Source: Cytophagales bacterium Alg240-R148 (GTDB lineage Bacteria > Bacteroidota > Bacteroidia > Cytophagales > Cyclobacteriaceae). From it: a DNA stretch of 64,000 bases. The stretch lies in assembly GCA_900537185.1 (NCBI GenBank), contig LS999826.1, positions 795,521-859,520 on the forward strand, in the 5' to 3' direction. The notes under the pieces are model-generated. The model worked only from the letters and a program-made list of their open reading frames with translations, had not been told where the DNA came from and did not search any database. Positions 12,317 through 48,908 of this stretch are shown piece by piece; position 1 is the first letter of the stretch; every line of letters starts with the position of its first letter. The position numbers and the translations under genes were made by a program.

Positions 12317-12573
12317 CTGCTTATAATTGAGATTACAGCGAAGCAACTGTATTTACCAATTGGTTGGGGAGCTTTTGTTGCCCCTATGCAATTGCTCCTG
12401 TCCAATTACTGTAATATTATAGGATAAAAGATATAATTAAAATAATATTTCTACGCAAATTTATGCTTTAATAACGGGGTTAATGGAAAAGAAAAGGAAA
12501 AATTATTCTGAAATTAAACGAGTAATGTTATATTGGGGATGATTTTTTTATATAATCTTTAGTATTAGTGTGT

Positions 12574-12930
12574 ATGTTGGATCCAATAAAGTTAGAGCAT
12601 TTCAGAAATTTAGTATCCTTGGCGGGCATTGATGGCTCTATTGATGAGTCTGAAAGAGTAGCACTTTCCAAAATTGCATTTGATCGAGGAATTGCATTGG
12701 ACCGTTTAAATGTTATGTTAAACCGCTCCGATGAATACGTATACTTAATCCCTCAAAATACGCAAGAACGCGAGAGTCAAATTACTGAAATGATCAAATT
12801 GGCTTTGGTGGATGGCGAGTTTTCTAAAGCAGAGCTTGAGTTGATATTGACAGTAGGTGAAAAGCTTAGTTACACGTATGAAGAAATTCATGCATTGATA
12901 GAAAAAAATACAGCAAGTTCTATTTTTTAG
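12574..12930 (+). CDS. Small TerB-like protein
   Basis: 118 residues from ATG 12574 (a GTG two codons upstream is also in frame). The pattern is all-helical: NLVSLAGIDGSIDESERVALSKIAFDRGI, then ITEMIKLALVDGEFSKAELELILTVGEKLSYTYEEIHALI. The repeated (A/V)DG-x-(I/F)-x-x-x-E motif is that of the TerB domain, which binds divalent metal with paired acidic residues. TerB-like proteins occur in tellurite-resistance and stress clusters, but stand-alone copies are common and uncharacterised. Its 3' end overlaps the ion-channel gene by 11 bp on the opposite strand. A TATAATCTTTAG sequence at 12551-12562 could be its promoter. Confidence 0.7.
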   Translation: MLDPIKLEHFRNLVSLAGIDGSIDESERVALSKIAFDRGIALDRLNVMLNRSDEYVYLIPQNTQERESQITEMIKLALVDGEFSKAELELILTVGEKLSYTYEEIHALIEKNTASSIF

Positions 12931-13579
12931 ATTCTTGGTTGAGGTATTTGCCAATAATTAATGCCACAATAATGGTTTGGTAAATCTGACATGCCAATCC
13001 AAATAACATCACTACTCTTTTTGAAAATTCATTCGATGGGGTTATGTCTCCATACCCTATGGTGGTTTGTGTGACGTAACTAAAATACAATAGATCCGTA
13101 CTTTTTTCAGCTAAAGTGCCGTTCAAGTTATTGAAAGAACCAGGTTGGTAAATTTCTATCAATAAGAAGATAAAAAAGCCAGTAAGGCCCAATACTACAA
13201 ACCCACACAACACGGCAATTAAAATGCTAGGTTCTATGTGGTCGGCCTGTAGGATGTCTCTGAAAAGTTGAAAAGCGACAATGGCAAAGAAGATAAGGTA
13301 GAGAGAAAAAATATAACTTTCCGACGAAAATACTTTGAAAAAATTAAGCCCAACAATCAAAAACGCCAACCCCAAGAATATCATGAGGTAGCGCATAATT
13401 TTTTTTCTGTGGTAAAATAAATTGATACCCGCAATTAGGTTGATTCCGAAAACCAAGGGCTGCATATTGTCTTGGTAAAAATCATCGGGGAAAAACAAAG
13501 GTAAAAATATAAGGAGCAGAAAACTCAATAATAACAAGTTGTACCGCAGATCAAAAAGTTTTTCTCTAAAGTTGCTCAT
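12920..13579 (-). CDS. Ion channel protein with potassium-type selectivity filter
   Basis: 219 residues from ATG 13579; the longer reading from TTG 13600 would run almost into the upstream gene and is unlikely. Four hydrophobic segments fill residues 13-104. A channel module follows: outer helix (about 118-142), pore helix and the filter TIGYGD at 173-178 in SYVTQTTIGYGDITP, then the inner helix LFGLACQIYQTIIVALIIGKYL. TIGYGD is the classic potassium filter. The four extra N-terminal helices lack the Arg ladder of voltage sensors. There is no C-terminal RCK or cyclic-nucleotide domain. It is the last gene of a four-gene operon with three outer-membrane proteins. Confidence 0.88.
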   Translation of the reverse strand: MSNFREKLFDLRYNLLLLSFLLLIFLPLFFPDDFYQDNMQPLVFGINLIAGINLFYHRKKIMRYLMIFLGLAFLIVGLNFFKVFSSESYIFSLYLIFFAIVAFQLFRDILQADHIEPSILIAVLCGFVVLGLTGFFIFLLIEIYQPGSFNNLNGTLAEKSTDLLYFSYVTQTTIGYGDITPSNEFSKRVVMLFGLACQIYQTIIVALIIGKYLNQESKK

Positions 13580-13600
13580 GTGCAATAAATATACAATCAA

Positions 13601-14299
13601 TTATTGAATTTTATGAAATACGCGCAGCCTAAATACCAAATCAGAACGGTTTAAATTTCCTGTGGCGAGGTCTCCTCTGCTCTGAATCATGACATTGGAT
13701 TCGACCGTCCATTGTCCATCAAAAACATATCCCAAGCCTGTTGTAAATCGAAAAGAATCATCTTCAACGTCTACAGAAGGGTCCAAATGAAAAATATATT
13801 CTGCGGTAAACGGAGTGAAAAAATAAGCCACGAAGGTGTCGTGCCTGTATCTAAAGGTACTGCCAATCCTATACCGATAACGCAGGAAACTTTCTAAAGG
13901 GGACCCTATTGGTCTTAGCCTTCTATTTTCAATTCGAAAAAGGTGGTCAATAGCAATTTTATCAAATCGAGGCCAGGATACTTTAGTGCCTATAAACGGT
14001 CTGATTTCATTTAAATCGGGGGTTTCATTGTCGTTGACTATATAAAACCAACCCATCCCCCCAAGTAACTCCCAGTGGTCTTTAATAAAATATTTGAATT
14101 TTGGTCTTAATACGGTTCTAAATTTTTGGTTAACGCTGTTGAAGTTTTTTCTCCAACCCACGTCAGCAAGAACGGTTAGTTTGGTGCTGAGGCTAAATGA
14201 CGGGTTGTAATCAAACCAAAAACGTTTGTTTGTTTTGGTTTGCCCCATCGACACCAACGGAGACAAACAAAACAGAAACCATACAATTCTTAAAGACAT
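13601..14299 (-). CDS. DUF2490 outer-membrane beta-barrel protein
   Basis: 232 residues with a signal peptide (about residues 1-19, ending SMGQ). The body alternates aromatic and polar residues in amphipathic strands (RFWFDYNPSFSLSTKLTVLADVGWRKN, ELLGGMGWFYIVND, IENRRLRPIGSPLESFLRYRYRIG), the pattern of the DUF2490 family of Bacteroidota barrels, whose function is unknown. It lies 3 bp after the barrel gene upstream and 21 bp before the channel start, in the same operon. The C-terminal LVFRLRVFHKIQ strand ends in polar residues rather than aromatic Phe. Confidence 0.82.
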   Translation of the reverse strand: MSLRIVWFLFCLSPLVSMGQTKTNKRFWFDYNPSFSLSTKLTVLADVGWRKNFNSVNQKFRTVLRPKFKYFIKDHWELLGGMGWFYIVNDNETPDLNEIRPFIGTKVSWPRFDKIAIDHLFRIENRRLRPIGSPLESFLRYRYRIGSTFRYRHDTFVAYFFTPFTAEYIFHLDPSVDVEDDSFRFTTGLGYVFDGQWTVESNVMIQSRGDLATGNLNRSDLVFRLRVFHKIQ

Positions 14300-14302
14300 T
14301 AA

Positions 14303-14998
14303 TTAGTCGTATTTATACATTTCCTTGAACTTCATACCGTCGCGGTGGTAAATCATAAAACTTAAAGAGATAGAAAATACACGGGCATCCATCCCTTCAT
14401 AAGGTTTTACATTTACGCCGTTCCCATCTGTCTCTATAAAATCAGGGTTTAAAAAGTTCTGAGGGTAATAGGTGAACCGCAAATTGGACCCATAAGGGAA
14501 TTGAACACCAGCAAACAAGGAGGGCACAAAACGAGGTGTTCTGTCTGAAAACCACGAGTTAAATTTGCTTTTGTTGTTGTTTTCAAATGTTTTCTCTTTG
14601 TAGTTGACAACCAAGTCATATTGGCCTCCGCCATAAAAGAAAAAGTCATGTTTTAAGTCACCATATTTAAAGGCTAGTGGAATACCGAAATTGTAGGTTC
14701 TCATTTTTTTTCTAATGCCATTGGCTTCGTCGTATATAAACCCGATATTTTTTAATGAAAACCCTGAGTAGAAACCAGCTTTTTCCGAAAAATCTTTGTT
14801 GATGTATTGTTGGATGTGCAGGAAGAGTGTAAATCGGACAACGTTATTGAGCTCTACATTGTTTTTTTTAACATTGGCAAAAGAGAAGATAAATTCTCCT
14901 CCTGACGACCAATATGTAGGCTTTTCTTGGGCCATGGTATTTTGACAGACGGACATTGCTACCAAAACGATCGAACAAATAATTAAAGTCTTTTTCAT
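14303..14998 (-). CDS. Outer-membrane beta-barrel protein, family unknown
   Basis: 231 residues with a signal peptide ending in TMAQ (about residue 23). Amphipathic strands follow (EFIFSFANVKK, YNFGIPLAFKYGD, FFFYGGGQYDLVVNY, FVPSLFAGVQFPYGSNLRFTYYP, RVFSISLSFMIYHRDG), a pattern matching the small PorT-like or OMP_b-brl barrels of Bacteroidota. It sits second in the operon that begins with the BamA-like gene (16-bp gap) and continues into DUF2490 (3-bp gap). No partner or cargo can be told from the sequence. Confidence 0.72.
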   Translation of the reverse strand: MKKTLIICSIVLVAMSVCQNTMAQEKPTYWSSGGEFIFSFANVKKNNVELNNVVRFTLFLHIQQYINKDFSEKAGFYSGFSLKNIGFIYDEANGIRKKMRTYNFGIPLAFKYGDLKHDFFFYGGGQYDLVVNYKEKTFENNNKSKFNSWFSDRTPRFVPSLFAGVQFPYGSNLRFTYYPQNFLNPDFIETDGNGVNVKPYEGMDARVFSISLSFMIYHRDGMKFKEMYKYD

Positions 14999-15014
14999 AA
15001 CATATTGATAATTA

Positions 15015-16940
15015 TCACTCTAAAGTAATGATTTTTGGCTTTCCGGGCCTAAAATCTTCAAATATTCTTGGGTTATTGGTCGAAAATTCGAAGCGGAAGG
15101 AGTTCCCATTTGGAGGAACTACAGGGTAGTAAGCAAACCTTAATTGTATGGTCTGAATGACCAGGCTTTCGTTTCTTATGCGAATTCCAGCACCTACTGC
15201 CATATAAGTATCTGAATATTTAAACAGACTTTGGTTGGTGCCCACTACCGCAACATCCCCAAATGCATAAGGCGCAAATTTAAAACCCAAAAAATACCAA
15301 GGCGTAAATACGATGGCTTCAAAACTCCCGGATACGATTTGATCGCTCTCAATATCGTCCCCGTTTAACCCTCTAACTTGCTCCTTCGTATTAATATTTT
15401 CTATTCTATTATTAAAAATGGTTTTTCCATATTTAACCGAAGAAATGGTTCTTAATTTATACCGTCCAATGGTGTTCAATTCTGAAATATGCAACAAACC
15501 AAATTTCAACACACCATCATTCAGGGATCTATTCTCCCAAAACCCACCAATAGCCGCAGTACCCAATAAAAAACCTTGCCCTTTGTTGTACCAAGCCCTG
15601 CCTAAAGTTAGTCCGGTATAAGGCCGCTGGACATATTCACTGTTCTCATATCCCAGTGAAAAGGAAGAAATATACCCTATTGGAATATCCTCAGTAATGC
15701 CAAACCCATAGATTAGGCTACTTTTCATGTAGTTTCTTGAACTGAAACTTATTTCTCCCAAATACCCAAGTCGGTCCTGAAAATAAAATAGTGTATCGGC
15801 ATCTGTACTTTCTGGTCTTCGAATAAACTCGCTGTTGTAAAAGCGCCCAGTAATAAAGATGTTTTGTCTTTCATTTTTTCTATTAACCTGTAAAGATTTT
15901 CCAAACCAAAAATCGGAGGTAACCGATTCGAATGGGGCGCTGTAAATGGTGTCTTGGTTAAAGTCTTGCCAATAGTGAAAAGCCCTGAGGCTGTGCACAT
16001 CAAAACCATATCCCGTTTTTGTCTCTGGCGTAATAAACGGTTTGTCCAAAAATACCCGAACTTCATTCTGTTCACCGGAATTCACAAAACTTGCTCCTGC
16101 ATCTACAATAGTATTGCCTATATTGCTCACCTTGTATTGTGCAGCATATCCGAAAGGGGGAGGAAACTCTTTTTTGTACAAGCCTAATAGCGATAGTTCA
16201 TGGCCCTGTCTGAACATATTTTTATGGGCCACACCAAAACTGAAATCATCGGCACTGCCAAAAGACCCTTCAACCGAGTAAGGAAAGTTGTCTTGCACCA
16301 CCACAATTACTTCTACTTTCTCTTCGTCTAATGGCGTAGTTTTGACATAGATTTTAACATCATGAATAAAGGTAAGGTTTCTTATAATTCTTTCATTGTC
16401 TGCAATAACAAGTGGGTTAAGGGGGGTGTTTTCTTTAAATTGTATGAATTTTAAAATGGCCTTTTCCCGGGTGGAACGATGGAGTTTATTAGCAAATGTC
16501 GCTAGTTTGTTAGGAGTGAGCAAGGTAGTGTCCAAAACGCTCTGGCCAAAAGATTCCAATTGTTTGATTCGGATACTTTGGATGGTTTTGCCCTTGTAGG
16601 GCATAAAGAAGTCCTCACTTTTTATGGTGTTGATGGCTTCTTCCTCTAGGTTGTTCGGTTCCGTTATTAGGGCATCGAACAAATTCTTGGTGAACCAGTT
16701 TTGATAACTTTTATTTTTGATAGAATCGTAGAAAACATCGGATTTTGTATATGGGTTTTTACGAATTTTGTATTTGACACTATCCGGTAAGTAAACCACC
16801 GTATCAGTTAAAGTCATAATCAATGTGTCTTTCAGAACAATCATTCTGCCCGATTTCACCTTAATTTCATTGTTCTGGGCAATAGATTTTAACGCCAGAA
16901 TAAAAATGAAACAAAATAGGATGGTAATGCTTTTTTTCAA
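15015..16940 (-). CDS. BamA/TamA-like outer-membrane protein
   Basis: 641 residues, starting at TTG 16940: an in-frame stop lies three codons upstream and no ATG is nearer. A signal peptide (to about residue 21, SIAQ) precedes POTRA-like segments: IQSIRIKQLESFG...LDTTLL, then ILKFIQFKENTPLNPLVIADNERIIRNLTFIHDVKIYVK and the strand VEVIVVVQDNFP (about residues 115-225). The rest is a barrel of about 16 strands with NPRIFEDFRPGKPKIITLE at the end. BamA-family proteins insert barrels or move substrates across the outer membrane. The N-terminus lacks the full five-POTRA set, so this is an accessory homologue. It leads the four-gene operon. Confidence 0.8.
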   Translation of the reverse strand: MKKSITILFCFIFILALKSIAQNNEIKVKSGRMIVLKDTLIMTLTDTVVYLPDSVKYKIRKNPYTKSDVFYDSIKNKSYQNWFTKNLFDALITEPNNLEEEAINTIKSEDFFMPYKGKTIQSIRIKQLESFGQSVLDTTLLTPNKLATFANKLHRSTREKAILKFIQFKENTPLNPLVIADNERIIRNLTFIHDVKIYVKTTPLDEEKVEVIVVVQDNFPYSVEGSFGSADDFSFGVAHKNMFRQGHELSLLGLYKKEFPPPFGYAAQYKVSNIGNTIVDAGASFVNSGEQNEVRVFLDKPFITPETKTGYGFDVHSLRAFHYWQDFNQDTIYSAPFESVTSDFWFGKSLQVNRKNERQNIFITGRFYNSEFIRRPESTDADTLFYFQDRLGYLGEISFSSRNYMKSSLIYGFGITEDIPIGYISSFSLGYENSEYVQRPYTGLTLGRAWYNKGQGFLLGTAAIGGFWENRSLNDGVLKFGLLHISELNTIGRYKLRTISSVKYGKTIFNNRIENINTKEQVRGLNGDDIESDQIVSGSFEAIVFTPWYFLGFKFAPYAFGDVAVVGTNQSLFKYSDTYMAVGAGIRIRNESLVIQTIQLRFAYYPVVPPNGNSFRFEFSTNNPRIFEDFRPGKPKIITLE

Positions 16941-16964
16941 TCTTAATCAGAGTATTTTTATATT

Positions 16965-16972
16965 CAAATATA
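16965..16972 (-). promoter_or_regulatory. -7 promoter box for the BamA-like operon
   Basis: The minus strand reads TATATTTG, an exact TAnnTTTG match. It predicts an RNA start near 16958, about 18 nt ahead of the TTG start codon at 16940. The 41-bp divergent gap also has to serve the plus-strand gene at 16982; TATTTTTA at 16953-16960 is a near-match in that direction. Confidence 0.55.
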
Positions 16973-16981
16973 ACATATAAA

Positions 16982-17539
16982 ATGAAAATTGGCTGGTTGA
17001 TTTTATTTCTGTTGGGTTCGTATTTTGGCTATTCTCAAAAATATGATTCGGTGAGGATTACCTTGTATCCCAATGGTACCACCATGGTAGAAGAGCCTTT
17101 TATTGCTGGAGAAATTGTTGGACAAGTTCAATATTTTTACCCCAATGGCCAACTTCAAGCGGTTGAAACTTGGGGGGAGGGTGTGCCGAATGGTACGGCA
17201 GTATATTATTTTGAAAATGGGGTCAAAAGCAAAGAAGGAAATTATAGGTCTGGAGTTTACCAAGGCCCTTGGTTGTATTATTTTGAAAATGGAGGGATAA
17301 AACGCAGTCAAAACTATGATAATGGGTTGTTGCATGGTAATTTTTTAGCCTTTAGTGCAAGTGCACACGTGTTGCAGAAAGGACAATATAAAAATGGCTT
17401 GGAAACTGGCCTTTGGTACTTTTATGATGCCAACGGAGAAATGACTTTTTCGGGTACCTATATTTTGGGGAAACAGCGCGGGGTGTGGTACCGGTATACC
17501 AAATCGGGGAAAAAGAAAGTGTACAAAAAATTCAACTAA
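16982..17539 (+). CDS. YwqK/MORN-like repeat protein, secreted
   Basis: 185 residues with a signal peptide (about 1-18, FGYSQ). Five to six repeats of roughly 23 residues follow, built on G-x-Y-x-x-G-x-x-x-G-x-W-x-Y-Y/F-x-x-x-G (for example YRSGVYQGPWLYYFENG, YKNGLETGLWYFYDANG, YILGKQRGVWYRYTKSG). These MORN-type hairpins are the family labelled YwqK after a Bacillus antitoxin, a label that means little here because the Bacteroidota members are exported and have no toxin neighbour. The last residues overlap the 3' end of the convergent BamA-like gene by 4 bp. Confidence 0.8.
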   Translation: MKIGWLILFLLGSYFGYSQKYDSVRITLYPNGTTMVEEPFIAGEIVGQVQYFYPNGQLQAVETWGEGVPNGTAVYYFENGVKSKEGNYRSGVYQGPWLYYFENGGIKRSQNYDNGLLHGNFLAFSASAHVLQKGQYKNGLETGLWYFYDANGEMTFSGTYILGKQRGVWYRYTKSGKKKVYKKFN

Positions 17540-18957
17540 AACCCCTGCCAAAAGTGCAGGTATATACCACCTTTTTGCTCTTTGTTAACGGTGTATTCTA
17601 CTCTGAATATAGCATCGTACATGGTAATGAAGTCAAGGCCAACGCCGCCACCAGCAATGAACCTGTCCGTAAGCCTTGAATTCCCTTCGTAATTCGGGAA
17701 ATTTTGGACATAACCAAAATCTACAAAAGTTTTGAGGTACAGCGCATAAGGGATGGTTCTAAATTGAGGAACAGGAAATTTCTTCCAGTATTTTGATCCG
17801 GAAAACAACTTCTTTTTGAAAGTGTTTTTAGAAACAAAATAGCGAGGCCCTTCTATAAAGTCCAATTCATATCCACGCACCAAATCCAACCCATTGCCCA
17901 TGCCGTTGTAAGAAGAATAGGGGCGATCGTCTGGGTTGCTTACATACCCTGATATGTAATTCGATAAATAGTATTCATTGCCTAAATCAAAGTATTTGGC
18001 CATGGATGCTTTTAATTCATAATAATCGATGTCGTTGTATAACCCAATACCGTATTTTAATATTTCAGCCTTTAACTGGTAGCCTTTGAGTGGGTAAGAC
18101 CGTATGTCTCTTTTATCCTTTCGATAGGAGTACCTCAAAAAAACATAGTCTTGATTGACCTTTCCCGGGCCATAAAAATTGGGATTTAGAATGGCTACGG
18201 TATCCGCAATAGAAGAAAATTTAAAACTGGCTTCCAGCGAGTGGAAATCCGTTATTTTACTTCGGTACAAATACCCCATTCCGAAAGAATAGTTTTCACT
18301 CAAAACCAGGTCGGTTTCGAAAAATTGGGCTACATGGTCGTCTGTATACAATTGAAGGTTTTTTAACTCATTGTACTGGACCCCAAATGAAAGGCCATGC
18401 CGCTGGGTCTTTTCAATATAAGGGATTTTATAATTGATACCCAGGTTCGTAGAATACCCAAACTGTGCATTTAATTCTAATTTTTCATTTCTACCCCTCA
18501 TGTTGTAATGGTCCAGCTTTAAACCATATACTACCCTCGAAAAATCTGCATTTCTATTGGTAATCCAATCATTAAAATTTCTGTCTACAAATTTTAAAAG
18601 TGGGATGGGAAACAAATACCACCGTTCGTCCACTTTGATAACTAAATCCACCAAGTCATTGCTCAAGTCCAAAATGTTGATTTCAACCGAGTTAAAAAGG
18701 CCAGTGTTATAAACTTTGTTTCTATCTTCTACAATGAGGGTTTTTAGATCCTTATAATATATCCATTCTCCGCGATCTATGGTTACTTCTCTTAATATTA
18801 TATTGTCTTTGGTAGTTTTGTTGCCTATAACAAATATTTTGTCAATTCGAACATAGCGTTCGGTAGAATCACCATTTGTTGTAGTCATAGGATTGTTTTG
18901 ACCTAAAACTGGCAGGTAAAAAAGTGAAAAAAATAATATGGTGAAAGCTCCCCTCAT
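17536..18957 (-). CDS. BamA/TamA-like outer-membrane protein with POTRA domain
   Basis: 473 residues with a signal peptide (about 1-19, VLGQ). A single POTRA domain spans about residues 28-115: YVRIDKIFVIGNKTTKDNIILREVTIDRGEWI, LKTLIVEDRNKVYNTGLFNSVEINIL, VDLVIKVDERWYLFPIP. It contains the classical GNKxT opening and GLF turn. A 16-strand-type barrel follows, with the conserved loop DRPYSSYNGMGNGLDLVRGYE near 370. The compact one-POTRA plan differs from BamA. It lies 90 bp after nadE on the same strand, so it may be the tail of the acpP-fabF-rnc-nadE run. Confidence 0.83.
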   Translation of the reverse strand: MRGAFTILFFSLFYLPVLGQNNPMTTTNGDSTERYVRIDKIFVIGNKTTKDNIILREVTIDRGEWIYYKDLKTLIVEDRNKVYNTGLFNSVEINILDLSNDLVDLVIKVDERWYLFPIPLLKFVDRNFNDWITNRNADFSRVVYGLKLDHYNMRGRNEKLELNAQFGYSTNLGINYKIPYIEKTQRHGLSFGVQYNELKNLQLYTDDHVAQFFETDLVLSENYSFGMGYLYRSKITDFHSLEASFKFSSIADTVAILNPNFYGPGKVNQDYVFLRYSYRKDKRDIRSYPLKGYQLKAEILKYGIGLYNDIDYYELKASMAKYFDLGNEYYLSNYISGYVSNPDDRPYSSYNGMGNGLDLVRGYELDFIEGPRYFVSKNTFKKKLFSGSKYWKKFPVPQFRTIPYALYLKTFVDFGYVQNFPNYEGNSRLTDRFIAGGGVGLDFITMYDAIFRVEYTVNKEQKGGIYLHFWQGF

Positions 18958-46484: not shown

Positions 46485-46524
46485 TTTTGGTATTGGTTGT
46501 TAAAACGAATAACCAATACCAAAA
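46485..46524. terminator. Bidirectional hairpin overlapping the tamL 3' end
   Basis: TTTTGGTATTGGTT (46485-46498) pairs perfectly over 14 bp with AACCAATACCAAAA (46511-46524) around a 12-nt loop. The right arm codes the final residues of TamL; the loop holds its stop codon (46500-46502). It would end both the E1 transcript and the tamL transcript. Confidence 0.65.
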
Positions 46525-48908
46525 TTTAACAAGAAGGTTTCTCTGGCATTGCGGTTGTCAAAAGGAGCATCGTTGTGCCCTTGATTAAGTATAAAGCGCT
46601 TTCCTTCGGGGCGTGCTGGATCGTAAAGTTTGGCTGCCAAATCAAACCTAAGAATCAAAAAAGTGAAATCAAACCTGAGGCCGACCCCTCCTGAAACGGC
46701 CAGTTCTTTGTAAAACCGGTTGAAGGCGAAGTTGCCACCTTCTCTGTTCACAGACTCTTCTAATAACCAGATGTTGCCGGCATCAATAAATGCAGCGCCG
46801 TCAATAAATCCAATTAGTTTTTTCCGCAATTCTAAACTAGCCTCTAATAAAATTTCACCTTGTTGCTCAAATTGGTAGGATAAATTCCCAGCAGAATCCA
46901 GTGGGGTATAGGAACCAGGTCCTAGCCGCCTAGGCCGCCAAGCCCTAATGCCGTTGCTACCTCCTGCAAATAAATATTTTTCATAAGGAAGTACTTTCTT
47001 TTCGCTGTAAGGTACGGCAATCCCTCCATTCAATCGAAAAGCAACCGAGGAATTTCTTGTGATCGGTATCACTTGCCTATAATCGCCATTCACTTTTAAA
47101 TATTTATAAGTTTCCAAACCATGGCGCTCGGCAAATTTAAACTCCACCAAGTTTTGAGTGGTACCACCGCTTTCTCCCGTTAATCTTAAAAATGAACTTT
47201 TTTGATTGTTTCGACCGTATTGATTGAAGTTATAAGTGGCGTCAAATATCATGGAAGTAACAAAAGAAGGTTTAAAAGTATTGATAAGTAAGTTGCCTTG
47301 TTCTTCCAATTCTTTCAGTCGTTTTTCAAAAGCTTGGTCCAAGTCGCTCTGAATAAAGTTAATGTCCGTCACAACAAAACGGTAGAATACCCGGTTGTCT
47401 TTTTCCCACAAAAAAGCATTGTTAACATTAAAGGTGTTTCTTTTGTATTCTGGTCGGTCTTGAAAGGAATAACCAGCTTCCATTTTGGTTCTAGGGTTCA
47501 ACTGGAAATCTCGGACCTTAATTTTTTTGCTGAATGGAATAATGAATTTAGGAAATGTAAGGGAAACGTTGGCTCCAGCTTCTGTACTTTGGTACACATT
47601 GTCTACTTCTGTAAGAGGAGCGACGCCTTCAAAACCGAATCGTGCAGAAAACTCCAAAGATTCCAGCCCACCGAATAAATTTCTCTTTTTGAAGCTTGTG
47701 TTGACAAAGGGCCCAGGAAGCCCTTGGGTAATGCTAACACCAAATTCATTGGTCCAAGAATACCTTTTTAAGGGACTTGTAAATATATTGGCAATAAAAT
47801 CGCCTCCAGTGGTGTCATAGGTGATATTGATAAATTTGAACATGTCCAACGAGGCCAGTTGCCGTTGCATCGTCAGGGTGTTTTTGCGGTTGTAAAGACT
47901 GTCTTTGTATATGAAAATTCTGGACTGAAGGGCTTTTAATTTGTATTGTTTGTCGTAGTAACTGTAGGTAATACCATCTTTATAAATGTGTTTCCTATTG
48001 GTTTTAAGGCCTTTGATGTCTGCATCCGTTGTGAATATAACCGAGTCTATGGTAAAGGTTTTGTGCAAGGTACGTCCGCCTCGGTTAAAAATGGACATCC
48101 GTATGCCCACCCGCTGGGGGTTGTAGGCGGTATCGATGTCATAGTGGATGAAATTTTTGGAGAAGTCGTAATACCCCTTGTTTTTTAAAAACAAGTCTAT
48201 GTCGTCCCGCTCTTGGGTCAAAACATCTTGGTCGTAAGGAGCTCCAATCGCAACTTTAGAGGCTCTCTTATTTAATAGCTCTAATAAATGTTCGTCTTTG
48301 GTGCTTATAAAAAAAGTATCAATCAAGTATTGAGTACCAATATCAAAATTGTAGTTAACTCGAATTTTTTTTCTGCTTTTAATCCCAGCTGGGTGTACAA
48401 TGTCTTTGCTAGAACTGGCTTTGAAAAATCCCTTTGATGTTAAATATAAATTGATTCGACGCTCGGTTTCTTCAGATGCAGCACTATCAAAAACAGCCAA
48501 AGGTTCGCCCCATCGCATGAGCAAGTTTCCATCGGTAATAACCAGGTCTTTTTTCGCAATTTTTTTATCTCGTTTTCGAGCGTATTTTAGTTTTTTAGAT
48601 TCGCTCTCCGTAGATTCAATTTTTTCATTGAATTTTAGAACTATCTTTTCTTTCTGTCTTTCAACTTTTTCAATGTCGTAATTTTTTTTGCCTTTTTCGT
48701 AAAGCCAAGCGTAGGGTATAGGAAACCGCTTATTTGGTTTTTGAGCATAAAATTCTTCCAGTCTAAACTTACTGATCTTTTGAGTACCTTTAATTTTTTG
48801 AGATACCAATACTTGCTCACCTGGTTGTAAGTATCGTGTTCCGGAGCAACTTGCAAGAAAAAGTGCCGCAATTGAAACTAAATATATATATTGTAACCTG
48901 ATCGTCAC
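46500..48908 (-). CDS. tamL: Translocation and assembly module lipoprotein TamL
   Basis: 802 residues from GTG 48908, only 7 bp from the divergent trmH start. Lipobox FLASC, Cys21. POTRA-like segments fill about 25-370 (ETERRINLYLTSKGFFKASS, RDDIDLFLKNKGYYDFSKN, ITYDTTGGDFIANIFTSPL), followed by the barrel with FAGGSNGIRAWRPRRLGPGSY near 640 and the C-terminal NFGIGYSF beta signal. In Bacteroidota TamL is the lipidated BamA-type partner of TamB, but no tamB gene is in this window. It is expected to help move or assemble surface lipoproteins and barrels. Confidence 0.88.
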   Translation of the reverse strand: MTIRLQYIYLVSIAALFLASCSGTRYLQPGEQVLVSQKIKGTQKISKFRLEEFYAQKPNKRFPIPYAWLYEKGKKNYDIEKVERQKEKIVLKFNEKIESTESESKKLKYARKRDKKIAKKDLVITDGNLLMRWGEPLAVFDSAASEETERRINLYLTSKGFFKASSSKDIVHPAGIKSRKKIRVNYNFDIGTQYLIDTFFISTKDEHLLELLNKRASKVAIGAPYDQDVLTQERDDIDLFLKNKGYYDFSKNFIHYDIDTAYNPQRVGIRMSIFNRGGRTLHKTFTIDSVIFTTDADIKGLKTNRKHIYKDGITYSYYDKQYKLKALQSRIFIYKDSLYNRKNTLTMQRQLASLDMFKFINITYDTTGGDFIANIFTSPLKRYSWTNEFGVSITQGLPGPFVNTSFKKRNLFGGLESLEFSARFGFEGVAPLTEVDNVYQSTEAGANVSLTFPKFIIPFSKKIKVRDFQLNPRTKMEAGYSFQDRPEYKRNTFNVNNAFLWEKDNRVFYRFVVTDINFIQSDLDQAFEKRLKELEEQGNLLINTFKPSFVTSMIFDATYNFNQYGRNNQKSSFLRLTGESGGTTQNLVEFKFAERHGLETYKYLKVNGDYRQVIPITRNSSVAFRLNGGIAVPYSEKKVLPYEKYLFAGGSNGIRAWRPRRLGPGSYTPLDSAGNLSYQFEQQGEILLEASLELRKKLIGFIDGAAFIDAGNIWLLEESVNREGGNFAFNRFYKELAVSGGVGLRFDFTFLILRFDLAAKLYDPARPEGKRFILNQGHNDAPFDNRNARETFLLNFGIGYSF

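Follow-up and report, generated by a model that had tools for sequence, protein, structure and literature searches.

Here we describe four adjacent genes in a 64,000-nucleotide stretch of the genome of Cytophagales bacterium Alg240-R148 (hereafter, the window). All four lie on the minus strand and follow one another in the order BARREL, OMP3, DUF2490 and CHAN, with successive gaps of 16, 3 and 21 bp by ORF calling (Table 1), as a first-pass annotation of this DNA had recorded. That annotation had suggested that the products of the cluster might work together across the cell envelope. Below, we examine each product, the order of the same gene families in relatives, and the alternative readings that the gene neighborhoods allow.

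Table 1. Features of the four-gene cluster (window coordinates)
Feature	Position	Strand	Basis
BARREL, 641 aa, TTG start	16940-15015	-	ORF
OMP3, 231 aa	14998-14303	-	ORF, Pfam PF13505
DUF2490 outer-membrane protein, 232 aa	14299-13601	-	ORF, Pfam PF10677
CHAN, K+-type channel, 219 aa, ATG start	13579-12920	-	ORF, PF07885
TATATTTG, possible Bacteroidota -7 box, 24 bp ahead of BARREL TTG	16965-16972	-	sequence

Organization of the cluster

Judging from direction and spacing, the four genes probably constitute an operon, and it is from the DNA that we infer co-transcription, as well as the location and function of the four products. The cluster had also been described as standing behind one exact -7 box. 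The 8-mer is indeed present but is not distinctive: TAnnTTTG occurs four times on the minus strand within 12920-17000 (at 16972, 16054, 15282 and 13503), against 3.35 expected from 300 shuffles, and the box at 16972 has no TTG within 45 bp on its upstream side. The cluster region contains more terminator-like sites than expected (10 versus 4.5); those on the minus strand, four in number, each fall inside a gene, two of them within BARREL and the DUF2490 gene, and none at a gene junction of the cluster.

Close same-strand spacing is common in the window. Among its 59 ORFs of at least 100 aa, 39 of the 58 neighboring pairs share a strand, 21 of these 39 with gaps of 25 bp or less, and a longer tight same-strand run is found at 33.8-40.3 kb.

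CHAN, a potassium-type channel

CHAN matches Ion_trans_2 (PF07885) with 31.5 bits against a cut-off of 22.5; its reading frame is open upstream to a TTG at 13600. The structure model (pLDDT 91.4) has four membrane helices followed by two pore helices, between which lies TTIGYGD, a selectivity filter of the TxGYGD type that marks K+ channel pores, and T173, G175 and G177 are invariant across 21 CHAN sequences. In profile comparisons the pore matched KCNK6 (E 1.2e-11) and Lmo2059 (E 2.1e-10); Foldseek with the model returned no row at E 0.001, the best being SKOR at 0.011. The fourth helix (87-111) contains a single Arg, its counterparts in relatives contain 0-4 Lys/Arg, and no voltage-gated S4 is recognizable; an RCK domain is likewise lacking, the last pore helix being followed by the C terminus. 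The earlier description of a six-helix TIGYGD channel devoid of RCK and voltage-sensor features is thus borne out. CHAN resembles the two-TM and six-TM K+ channels (KCNK, Lmo2059 and SthK kin) in its TIGYGD filter and pore helices, but departs from them in two ways: its N-terminal part has four additional helices that lack S4 charges, and a cytosolic gating domain is missing.

A single-sequence search found one copy of CHAN in its own genome, and the family profile found three matches there, of which only the window copy is among the matches listed. The neighbors of CHAN relatives are many and unrelated: of 20 regions, 5 have RND efflux operons, and elsewhere there are an ABC transporter, a Mur ligase, a sulfatase, an M48 peptidase and others. 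A channel-cyclase pairing was considered and dropped, because cyclases of this kind abound (the own genome alone has 8 matches) and adjoin the channel in only 3 of the 20 regions.

BARREL, a divergent protein with an Omp85-like predicted fold

BARREL is a secreted protein in which we recognize a POTRA-like segment (117-217), a series of strand elements (221-621) and the loop-6 motif VRGL (522-525), which is of the (V/I)RG(F/Y) type. In its AlphaFold model (pLDDT 80.6, pTM 0.70), the POTRA-like part consists of a strand, helices and two strands at 119-217, and is followed by 20 strand elements, a count that does not imply a closed barrel of that size; the last 16 (277-621) match the BamA barrel. 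The top Foldseek row was TamA (E 1.4e-12), and VIA alignment with BamA gave Z 17.0 over 356 aligned residues at an rmsd of 6.0. Porins and TonB receptors appear in the VIA-align list as well, at Z 13.5-16.3, so the match to BamA is partly that of a generic barrel. Within the family, the loop-6 Arg is present in 20 of 21 members and Arg-Gly in 13 of 21, with mostly Leu or Ile in the final position; the corresponding motif of Flavobacterium johnsoniae BamA is given as LRGY (PMC12611786).

Sequence comparisons yielded far less. The window protein has no Pfam match and no NCBIfam match, including the BamA model TIGR03303. Across the family, the Pfam Omp85 models match 0 of 21 members at E 1, and Pfam POTRA matches weakly in 3 of 21, with a best E of 0.043. 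Among the loci retrieved, the BARREL profile matched no other Omp85 protein significantly, a PDB sequence search returned nothing, and a single-sequence scan of the genome contigs found no relative. A comparison of BARREL with an Omp85 alignment was set aside: that alignment is small and mistakenly included one row built from 20 bases, and the outcome was weak (probability 1.1%, E 0.049).

BARREL is best described, on the strength of its model, as a divergent outer-membrane protein of Omp85-like fold that is BamA-like in predicted fold only and is not BamA itself; of its earlier designation as a TTG-initiated BamA-like barrel, the start codon and the likeness in predicted fold stand. It resembles the Omp85 superfamily (BamA, TamA, TamL, FhaC) in the predicted POTRA-like domain, in the last 16 modeled strand elements, which align with the barrel of BamA, and in the loop-6 Arg. 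It differs in the lack of any Pfam Omp85 match among 21 members, in four extra strand elements ahead of the modeled BamA-aligned barrel and in having only one POTRA-like domain. TamL is a lipoprotein (PMC12045153), whereas the signal peptide of BARREL has no lipobox. In the BAM complex of F. johnsoniae, a Bacteroidota Omp85 protein works with a second barrel, BamG (PMC12611786); BARREL, by comparison, has no NCBIfam BamA match and is present in fewer than half of the family genomes (142 of 305), and for these reasons is not a core BAM component. An outer-membrane family with an Omp85-like predicted fold that is this frequent and has no Pfam or NCBIfam match is a lead in its own right.

OMP3 and the DUF2490 protein

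OMP3, previously left as an unclassified barrel, is a barrel that can be classified marginally, just passing the gathering cut-off of OMP_b-brl (PF13505; 29.0 versus 28.7 bits). It belongs to a distinct conserved family; of the 12 members in the alignment, PF13505 recognizes 4 at E 0.01. This family of outer-membrane beta-barrels is widespread in Bacteroidota: OMP3 occurs in 26 of 146 genomes, its own included, and relatives are encoded in 188 genome-contig stretches. The DUF2490 assignment was confirmed, with PF10677 matching at 58.1 bits against a gathering cut-off of 29.8. The protein is a normal match that shows nothing notably different from its family, a putative porin family (TC 1.B.81) whose "functions are not established" according to a passage in PMC4827864. 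Its own genome holds a second copy at C4:256235 and four matches to the family profile. PDB sequence searches gave nothing convincing for OMP3 or for the DUF2490 protein, the best row for the latter being TMB12sol9_3 (E 0.011).

Profile comparisons of BARREL with OMP3, and of OMP3 with DUF2490, matched in the signal peptides only, and common origin of either pair is accordingly unsupported. When the BARREL profile was scanned, OMP3 gave weak rows, which we do not take as signs of kinship.

Gene order in relatives

We compared the four families across a set of 305 family genomes, own included. Pair distances were computed from the matches listed for each family, namely 127 channel places in 119 genomes (E 1e-18 cut; at E 0.001 the channel profile matches in 299 of 305), 149 BARREL places in 137 of the 142 BARREL genomes, 150 DUF2490 places in 128 of 275 DUF2490 genomes, and 54 OMP3 places in 53 of 54 OMP3 genomes, one weak row and one duplicate piece being left out. 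Among these matches, the channel co-occurs with BARREL in 38 genomes, with OMP3 in 38 and with DUF2490 in 52; distances exist only for the 14, 9 and 16 of these, respectively (own genome included), in which the pair shares a contig, many of the relatives having fragmented assemblies.

The arrangement is not conserved in the relatives searched. Among the matches listed in the 304 other family genomes, no channel lies less than 18 kb from BARREL, OMP3 or DUF2490, many pairs being on different contigs; the nearest channel pairs outside the window are at 18.6 kb for DUF2490, 23.9 kb for BARREL and 47.6 kb for OMP3, low end to low end. We also compared 60 regions, each surrounding a copy of one of the four genes (59 from relatives and one for the own genome's second DUF2490 copy); at a BLASTP threshold of 1e-4, none contained two of the four families. 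In relatives, then, the channel largely lies elsewhere and the barrels keep varied other neighbors, the pattern that the first-pass annotation had set down as telling against its own proposal of a joint trans-envelope unit that senses or sets ion or osmotic conditions. For a single four-part ion- or osmo-sensing complex there speak only co-direction and short gaps, and given the separation in relatives we regard it as extremely improbable.

The alternative offered at the same time, that the BamA-like protein assembles the two barrels, would make BARREL a dedicated insertase for OMP3 and/or DUF2490. Its Omp85-like predicted fold and its adjacency in the window fit such a role, and so do the BARREL and OMP3 genes found within about 4 kb of each other in three genomes of one genus and on contig L270, and BARREL and DUF2490 genes separated by 7-15 kb in another genus (four genomes). 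However, where BARREL and OMP3 lie close together they face opposite ways, on different strands, and the two families are not linked in their occurrence: among the matches listed they co-occur in 22 of 305 genomes against 23.8 expected, and in 4 of 84 one-per-genus genomes against 6.1 expected. Most of the genomes in which one of the two is listed lack the other. Co-occurrence that does not exceed expectation speaks against a dedicated OMP3 assembler, and we consider a dedicated insertase for OMP3 and/or DUF2490 very unlikely.

BARREL and OMP3 also have settings of their own. Of 20 first-round BARREL regions, 4 have BARREL behind an acyltransferase-gpsA pair, one of them with an intervening ORF on the opposite strand; of 11 first-round regions for OMP3, 3 have it behind acyltransferase-gpsA-permease.

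OMP3 beside ion channels

The best 80 of the 188 OMP3 stretches were analyzed, and 77 loci remained after removal of three in which the gene caller had no OMP3 ORF. In 8 of the 77, a gene of MscS type lies directly upstream of OMP3 on the same strand, with gaps of -23 to 79 bp; the eighth locus (L269) is cut by a contig end, and its MscS was recognized from the profile only. In Mongoliitalea lutea (L289), a single gene separates MscS from OMP3. Four of these loci continue with an acyltransferase-family gene, and the OMP3s of all eight are 55-90% identical among themselves. The MscS profile was absent from 24 BARREL, 20 CHAN, 9 DUF2490, 24 Cytophagales OMP3 and 3 BARREL+OMP3 regions. Furthermore, a CHAN-family gene stands one gene away from OMP3 in 2 of the 80 loci, L227 (1.8 kb) and L263 (2.1 kb), where about 0.1 would be expected from family-genome density. 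These two are on separate branches and, with the window, make three separate changes on the OMP3 tree, a quick tree of 92 rows from which near-identical and short OMP3s were left out and in which many deep forks are open. Neighbor families took their Pfam names from one representative each, except for MscS, for which eight adjacent or near genes were scanned; at least three contigs are duplicates (L233 = L163, L272 = L167, L224 = L194).

One reading of these neighborhoods is that OMP3 and the channel form a two-membrane pair, in which the channel would release K+ (elsewhere MscS, osmolytes) and OMP3 would be the outer-membrane exit or tension partner, with BARREL and DUF2490 as passengers. The MscS loci and the two CHAN loci argue for it, as does an association of the profiles at genus level: at a loose cut-off the channel accompanies OMP3 in 14 of 16 OMP3 genera, where 6.7 would be expected (Fisher p 4.5e-5). 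A more stringent threshold for the channel lowers this to 7 genera against 4.2 (p 0.11); for channel and DUF2490, in the 84 one-per-genus genomes and among the matches listed, the figures are 18 against 13.3 (p 0.042). Both comparisons are uncorrected for relatedness. The arguments on the other side are several. The MscS arrangement requires just 2 changes on the OMP3 tree and so amounts to approximately one evolutionary event, and other OMP3 clades have equally constant neighbors that are not channels, namely a B12-binding protein (11 loci), an enoyl-CoA hydratase (11) and an amino-acid permease (8). BARREL is near OMP3 as often as CHAN is (2 of 80, the two being related to each other), CHAN and OMP3 are not in one operon in L227 and L263, and the count of CHAN loci was made post hoc. 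Where channel and OMP3 share a contig elsewhere in the family (8 genomes), the matches listed are at least 47.6 kb apart. On balance we consider the pair unlikely. The general form of the idea, that OMP3 is an outer-membrane partner family of inner-membrane ion channels (MscS in Bacteroidales-type bacteria, the TIGYGD channel here) and serves ion release across two membranes under osmotic stress, appears to us improbable. A link of some kind between OMP3 and inner-membrane channels is nevertheless possible in view of the MscS and CHAN neighbors, and because of them the interpretation of the first-pass annotation, taken as a whole, is partly supported rather than unsupported. With OMP3 operonic with MscS, the exit of ions through the outer membrane in osmotic shock would become a testable question. 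None of the titles listed in literature searches names these operons, although this does not establish that they are unpublished.

A probable lineage-specific envelope operon

As relatives keep the four genes apart, they are probably not one machine. We think it likely that they constitute a lineage-specific envelope operon, the products of which act independently and form no physical complex. The genes would have been brought together in this lineage, and what they have in common would be their expression, perhaps in some envelope-related or osmotic condition. BARREL, going by its fold, may be an accessory outer-membrane Omp85-like protein for assembly or translocation; OMP3 and the DUF2490 protein would serve as small outer-membrane barrels or porins, and CHAN as an inner-membrane K+ channel without a recognized gating domain. 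An operon can be striking without encoding a machine: here, gene order in about 300 relatives separates the parts. The family set contains no second genome of the own genus, inside which the four-gene unit may be conserved. Genome G024 has members of all four families inside a stretch of about 70 kb, in mixed orientation, and two other envelope-type genes of the window are matched there as well.

Genetic organization of the cluster

In this 5.3 Mb genome of seven contigs (the window being C1:795521-859520), four minus-strand genes encode a 641-aa outer-membrane protein (BARREL), a 231-aa outer-membrane beta-barrel (OMP3), a DUF2490 outer-membrane protein and a 219-aa K+-type channel (CHAN). 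Their order and their gaps of 16, 3 and 21 bp, as given in the first-pass annotation, were confirmed from the ORFs and the sequence. Together they likely constitute an operon. A scan of the region revealed no terminator-like sites at the three junctions; the region contained 10 such sites (4.5 expected), of which the minus strand carries four, all intragenic. A sigma-70 scan of the region remained at chance level (14 observed versus 15.9 expected), and the single exact -7 box previously assigned upstream of BARREL is of little significance: TAnnTTTG, the Bacteroidota -7 consensus, is an 8-mer found at chance level in the region (4 observed versus 3.35 expected). Since gaps of 25 bp or less occur in 21 of the 39 same-strand neighbour pairs of the window, tight same-strand neighbours are normal there and the spacing alone is unremarkable.

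Features of the cluster and other genes of the window
Feature	Position	Strand	Remarks
TerB-like gene	12568-12930	plus	convergent; 3' end overlaps CHAN gene by 11 bp
CHAN	13579-12920	minus	ORF
DUF2490	14299-13601	minus	ORF; identity per annotation (Pfam)
OMP3	14998-14303	minus	ORF; identity per annotation (Pfam)
BARREL	16940-15015	minus	ORF, TTG start
MORN-repeat gene	16982-17539	plus	upstream; begins 41 bp from BARREL, opposite direction
Omp85 protein, single POTRA	17536-18957	minus	beyond MORN-repeat gene; Pfam POTRA and Omp85 domains
Omp85-like gene	46500-48908		lipobox-like signal LASC; TamL-like by description only

The opposite-strand MORN-repeat gene separates the single-POTRA Omp85 gene from BARREL and overlaps the 3' end of the former by 4 bp. 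In one relative genome, the counterpart of the further Omp85-like gene lies directly behind a 1551-codon gene of TamB-like size.

Conservation of the four genes in relatives

Single-protein searches of 146 genomes, including this one, gave 62 for CHAN, 59 for BARREL, 27 for DUF2490 and 26 for OMP3, and none of the 60 regions fetched around matches (59 in relatives) contained two of the four families. Distances, taken from low end to low end, came from profile searches of 305 family genomes, in which the window's own genus is represented by this genome alone; the window was excluded for closest pairs, and CHAN was taken at an E cut-off of 1e-18 (127 places). Among the matches listed, the closest same-contig partner of CHAN was DUF2490 at 18.6 kb, followed by BARREL at 23.9 kb and OMP3 at 47.6 kb; the closest pairs otherwise were BARREL-OMP3 (1.6 kb), BARREL-DUF2490 (7.4 kb) and OMP3-DUF2490 (30.1 kb). 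Most pairs were on different contigs, with CHAN sharing a contig with BARREL in 14 of 38 genomes, with OMP3 in 9 of 38 and with DUF2490 in 16 of 52. One genus has BARREL and OMP3 near each other, on opposite strands, in three of its genomes, at distances of 1.6, 3.1 and 4.1 kb, and, among the matches listed, BARREL and DUF2490 are 7-15 kb apart in four genomes of another genus. Co-occurrence among the matches listed in the 305 genomes was not above expectation for BARREL and OMP3 (22 versus 23.8) and was below it for CHAN and BARREL (38 versus 53.5; with one genome per genus, 11 versus 13.3, p 0.36). The trans-envelope unit of all four products that had been proposed is unconserved in the genomes searched; the most probable reading of the group is an envelope operon specific to this lineage whose products act independently.

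Elsewhere the genes have other partners. Of 20 CHAN regions, five (L120, L121, L131, L132, L133) have CHAN behind an RND efflux operon (outer-membrane efflux protein, HlyD, AcrB), three (L131, L133, L125) have a class III cyclase gene directly after it, and in one (L128) it stands 64 bp behind a patatin-POTRA-Omp85 gene, with another Omp85-like gene nearby. Acyltransferase and gpsA genes precede BARREL in 4 of 20 first-round regions (L147, L152, L155, L157), once with an opposite-strand ORF between; with a permease gene in between, they precede OMP3 in 3 of 11 (L163, L167, L168). This latter set recurs in 7 of the 80 named OMP3 loci, the best 80 of 188, at least two having been counted in the first round. 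Acyltransferase-gpsA is a phospholipid-synthesis neighbourhood common to BARREL in some genera and to OMP3 in others.

OMP3 and inner-membrane channels

A narrower reading, in which OMP3 is paired with an inner-membrane channel, is improbable in our estimation. In L227, CHAN is 1.8 kb from OMP3 with one gene between, divergent and behind a DUF5723 gene; in L263 it is 2.1 kb away in the same direction, with an opposite-strand gene between. With the window, these represent three separate changes on the OMP3 tree, a quick tree whose deep forks are weakly supported. Two such cases in 1.28 Mb of OMP3 loci compare with about 0.1 expected (127 CHAN places in 305 genomes, each taken as 5 Mb), a post hoc count with three families tried, in which BARREL also gave two, from one genus-like group. 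At genus level, with kinship ignored, CHAN and OMP3 co-occurred in 14 of 16 OMP3 genera versus 6.7 expected (p 4.5e-5), dropping to 7 versus 4.2 (p 0.11) under a strict CHAN cut-off.

Neighbours were counted in the same best 80 of 188 OMP3 loci; OMP3 itself was called as a gene in 77 of them. In L241, L246, L248, L251, L252, L264 and L295 the gene immediately before OMP3, in the same orientation, encodes a mechanosensitive MscS-type channel (gaps -23 to 59 bp); in L269, a locus cut at the contig end, such a gene was identified by profile (gap 79). From gene order, the two appear to form an operon-like pair in these eight loci, whose OMP3s are 55-90% identical; an acyltransferase-family gene follows OMP3 in four (family scanned on one). 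The same profile found no MscS in 80 other regions (24 BARREL, 20 CHAN, 9 DUF2490, 24 Cytophagales OMP3 and 3 BARREL plus OMP3). The MscS-linked rows require two changes on the OMP3 tree, so that the arrangement amounts to roughly one event, and other OMP3 clades have other, equally constant neighbours. On the quick tree the window OMP3 falls outside the Cyclobacteriaceae rows, isolated at the end of a long branch, and may therefore have been acquired.

Predicted structures of BARREL and CHAN

The earlier description of BARREL as BamA-like holds for its predicted fold, which is Omp85-like, but not for Omp85 membership by sequence: it has no Pfam or NCBIfam match, and a PDB sequence search with its family (n=21) found nothing at E 10. 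The model (pLDDT 80.6, pTM 0.70) places a POTRA-like unit at residues 117-217, ahead of 20 strand elements spanning 221-621. In Foldseek, 48 of the 50 matches listed were titled as BAM/BamA or TamA structures, the best being TamA (E 1.4e-12, query TM-score 0.35) and the other two 5ayw ("a membrane complex") and a TOC-TIC supercomplex chain. VIA-align gave Z 17.0 against BamA (356 residues, rmsd 6.0), with porins and TonB receptors also reaching Z 13.5-16.3. The loop-6 Arg is present in 20 of 21 family members. Profile matches to BARREL occurred in 142 of the 305 family genomes and, in a sample of 48 genomes of the phylum, in 6, this one included.

Known Omp85 barrels have 16 strands. The isolated BamA barrel aligns to BARREL from about residue 278, preceded by four short strand elements (residues 221-274), and the model suggests a possible 20-strand Omp85-like barrel with four strand elements beyond the 16-strand BamA match.

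The CHAN model (pLDDT 91.4) predicts a K+-type pore with four additional helices. TxGYGD is the K+ filter, and the T, G and G of the CHAN filter do not vary among 21 sequences; a single Arg lies on helix four.
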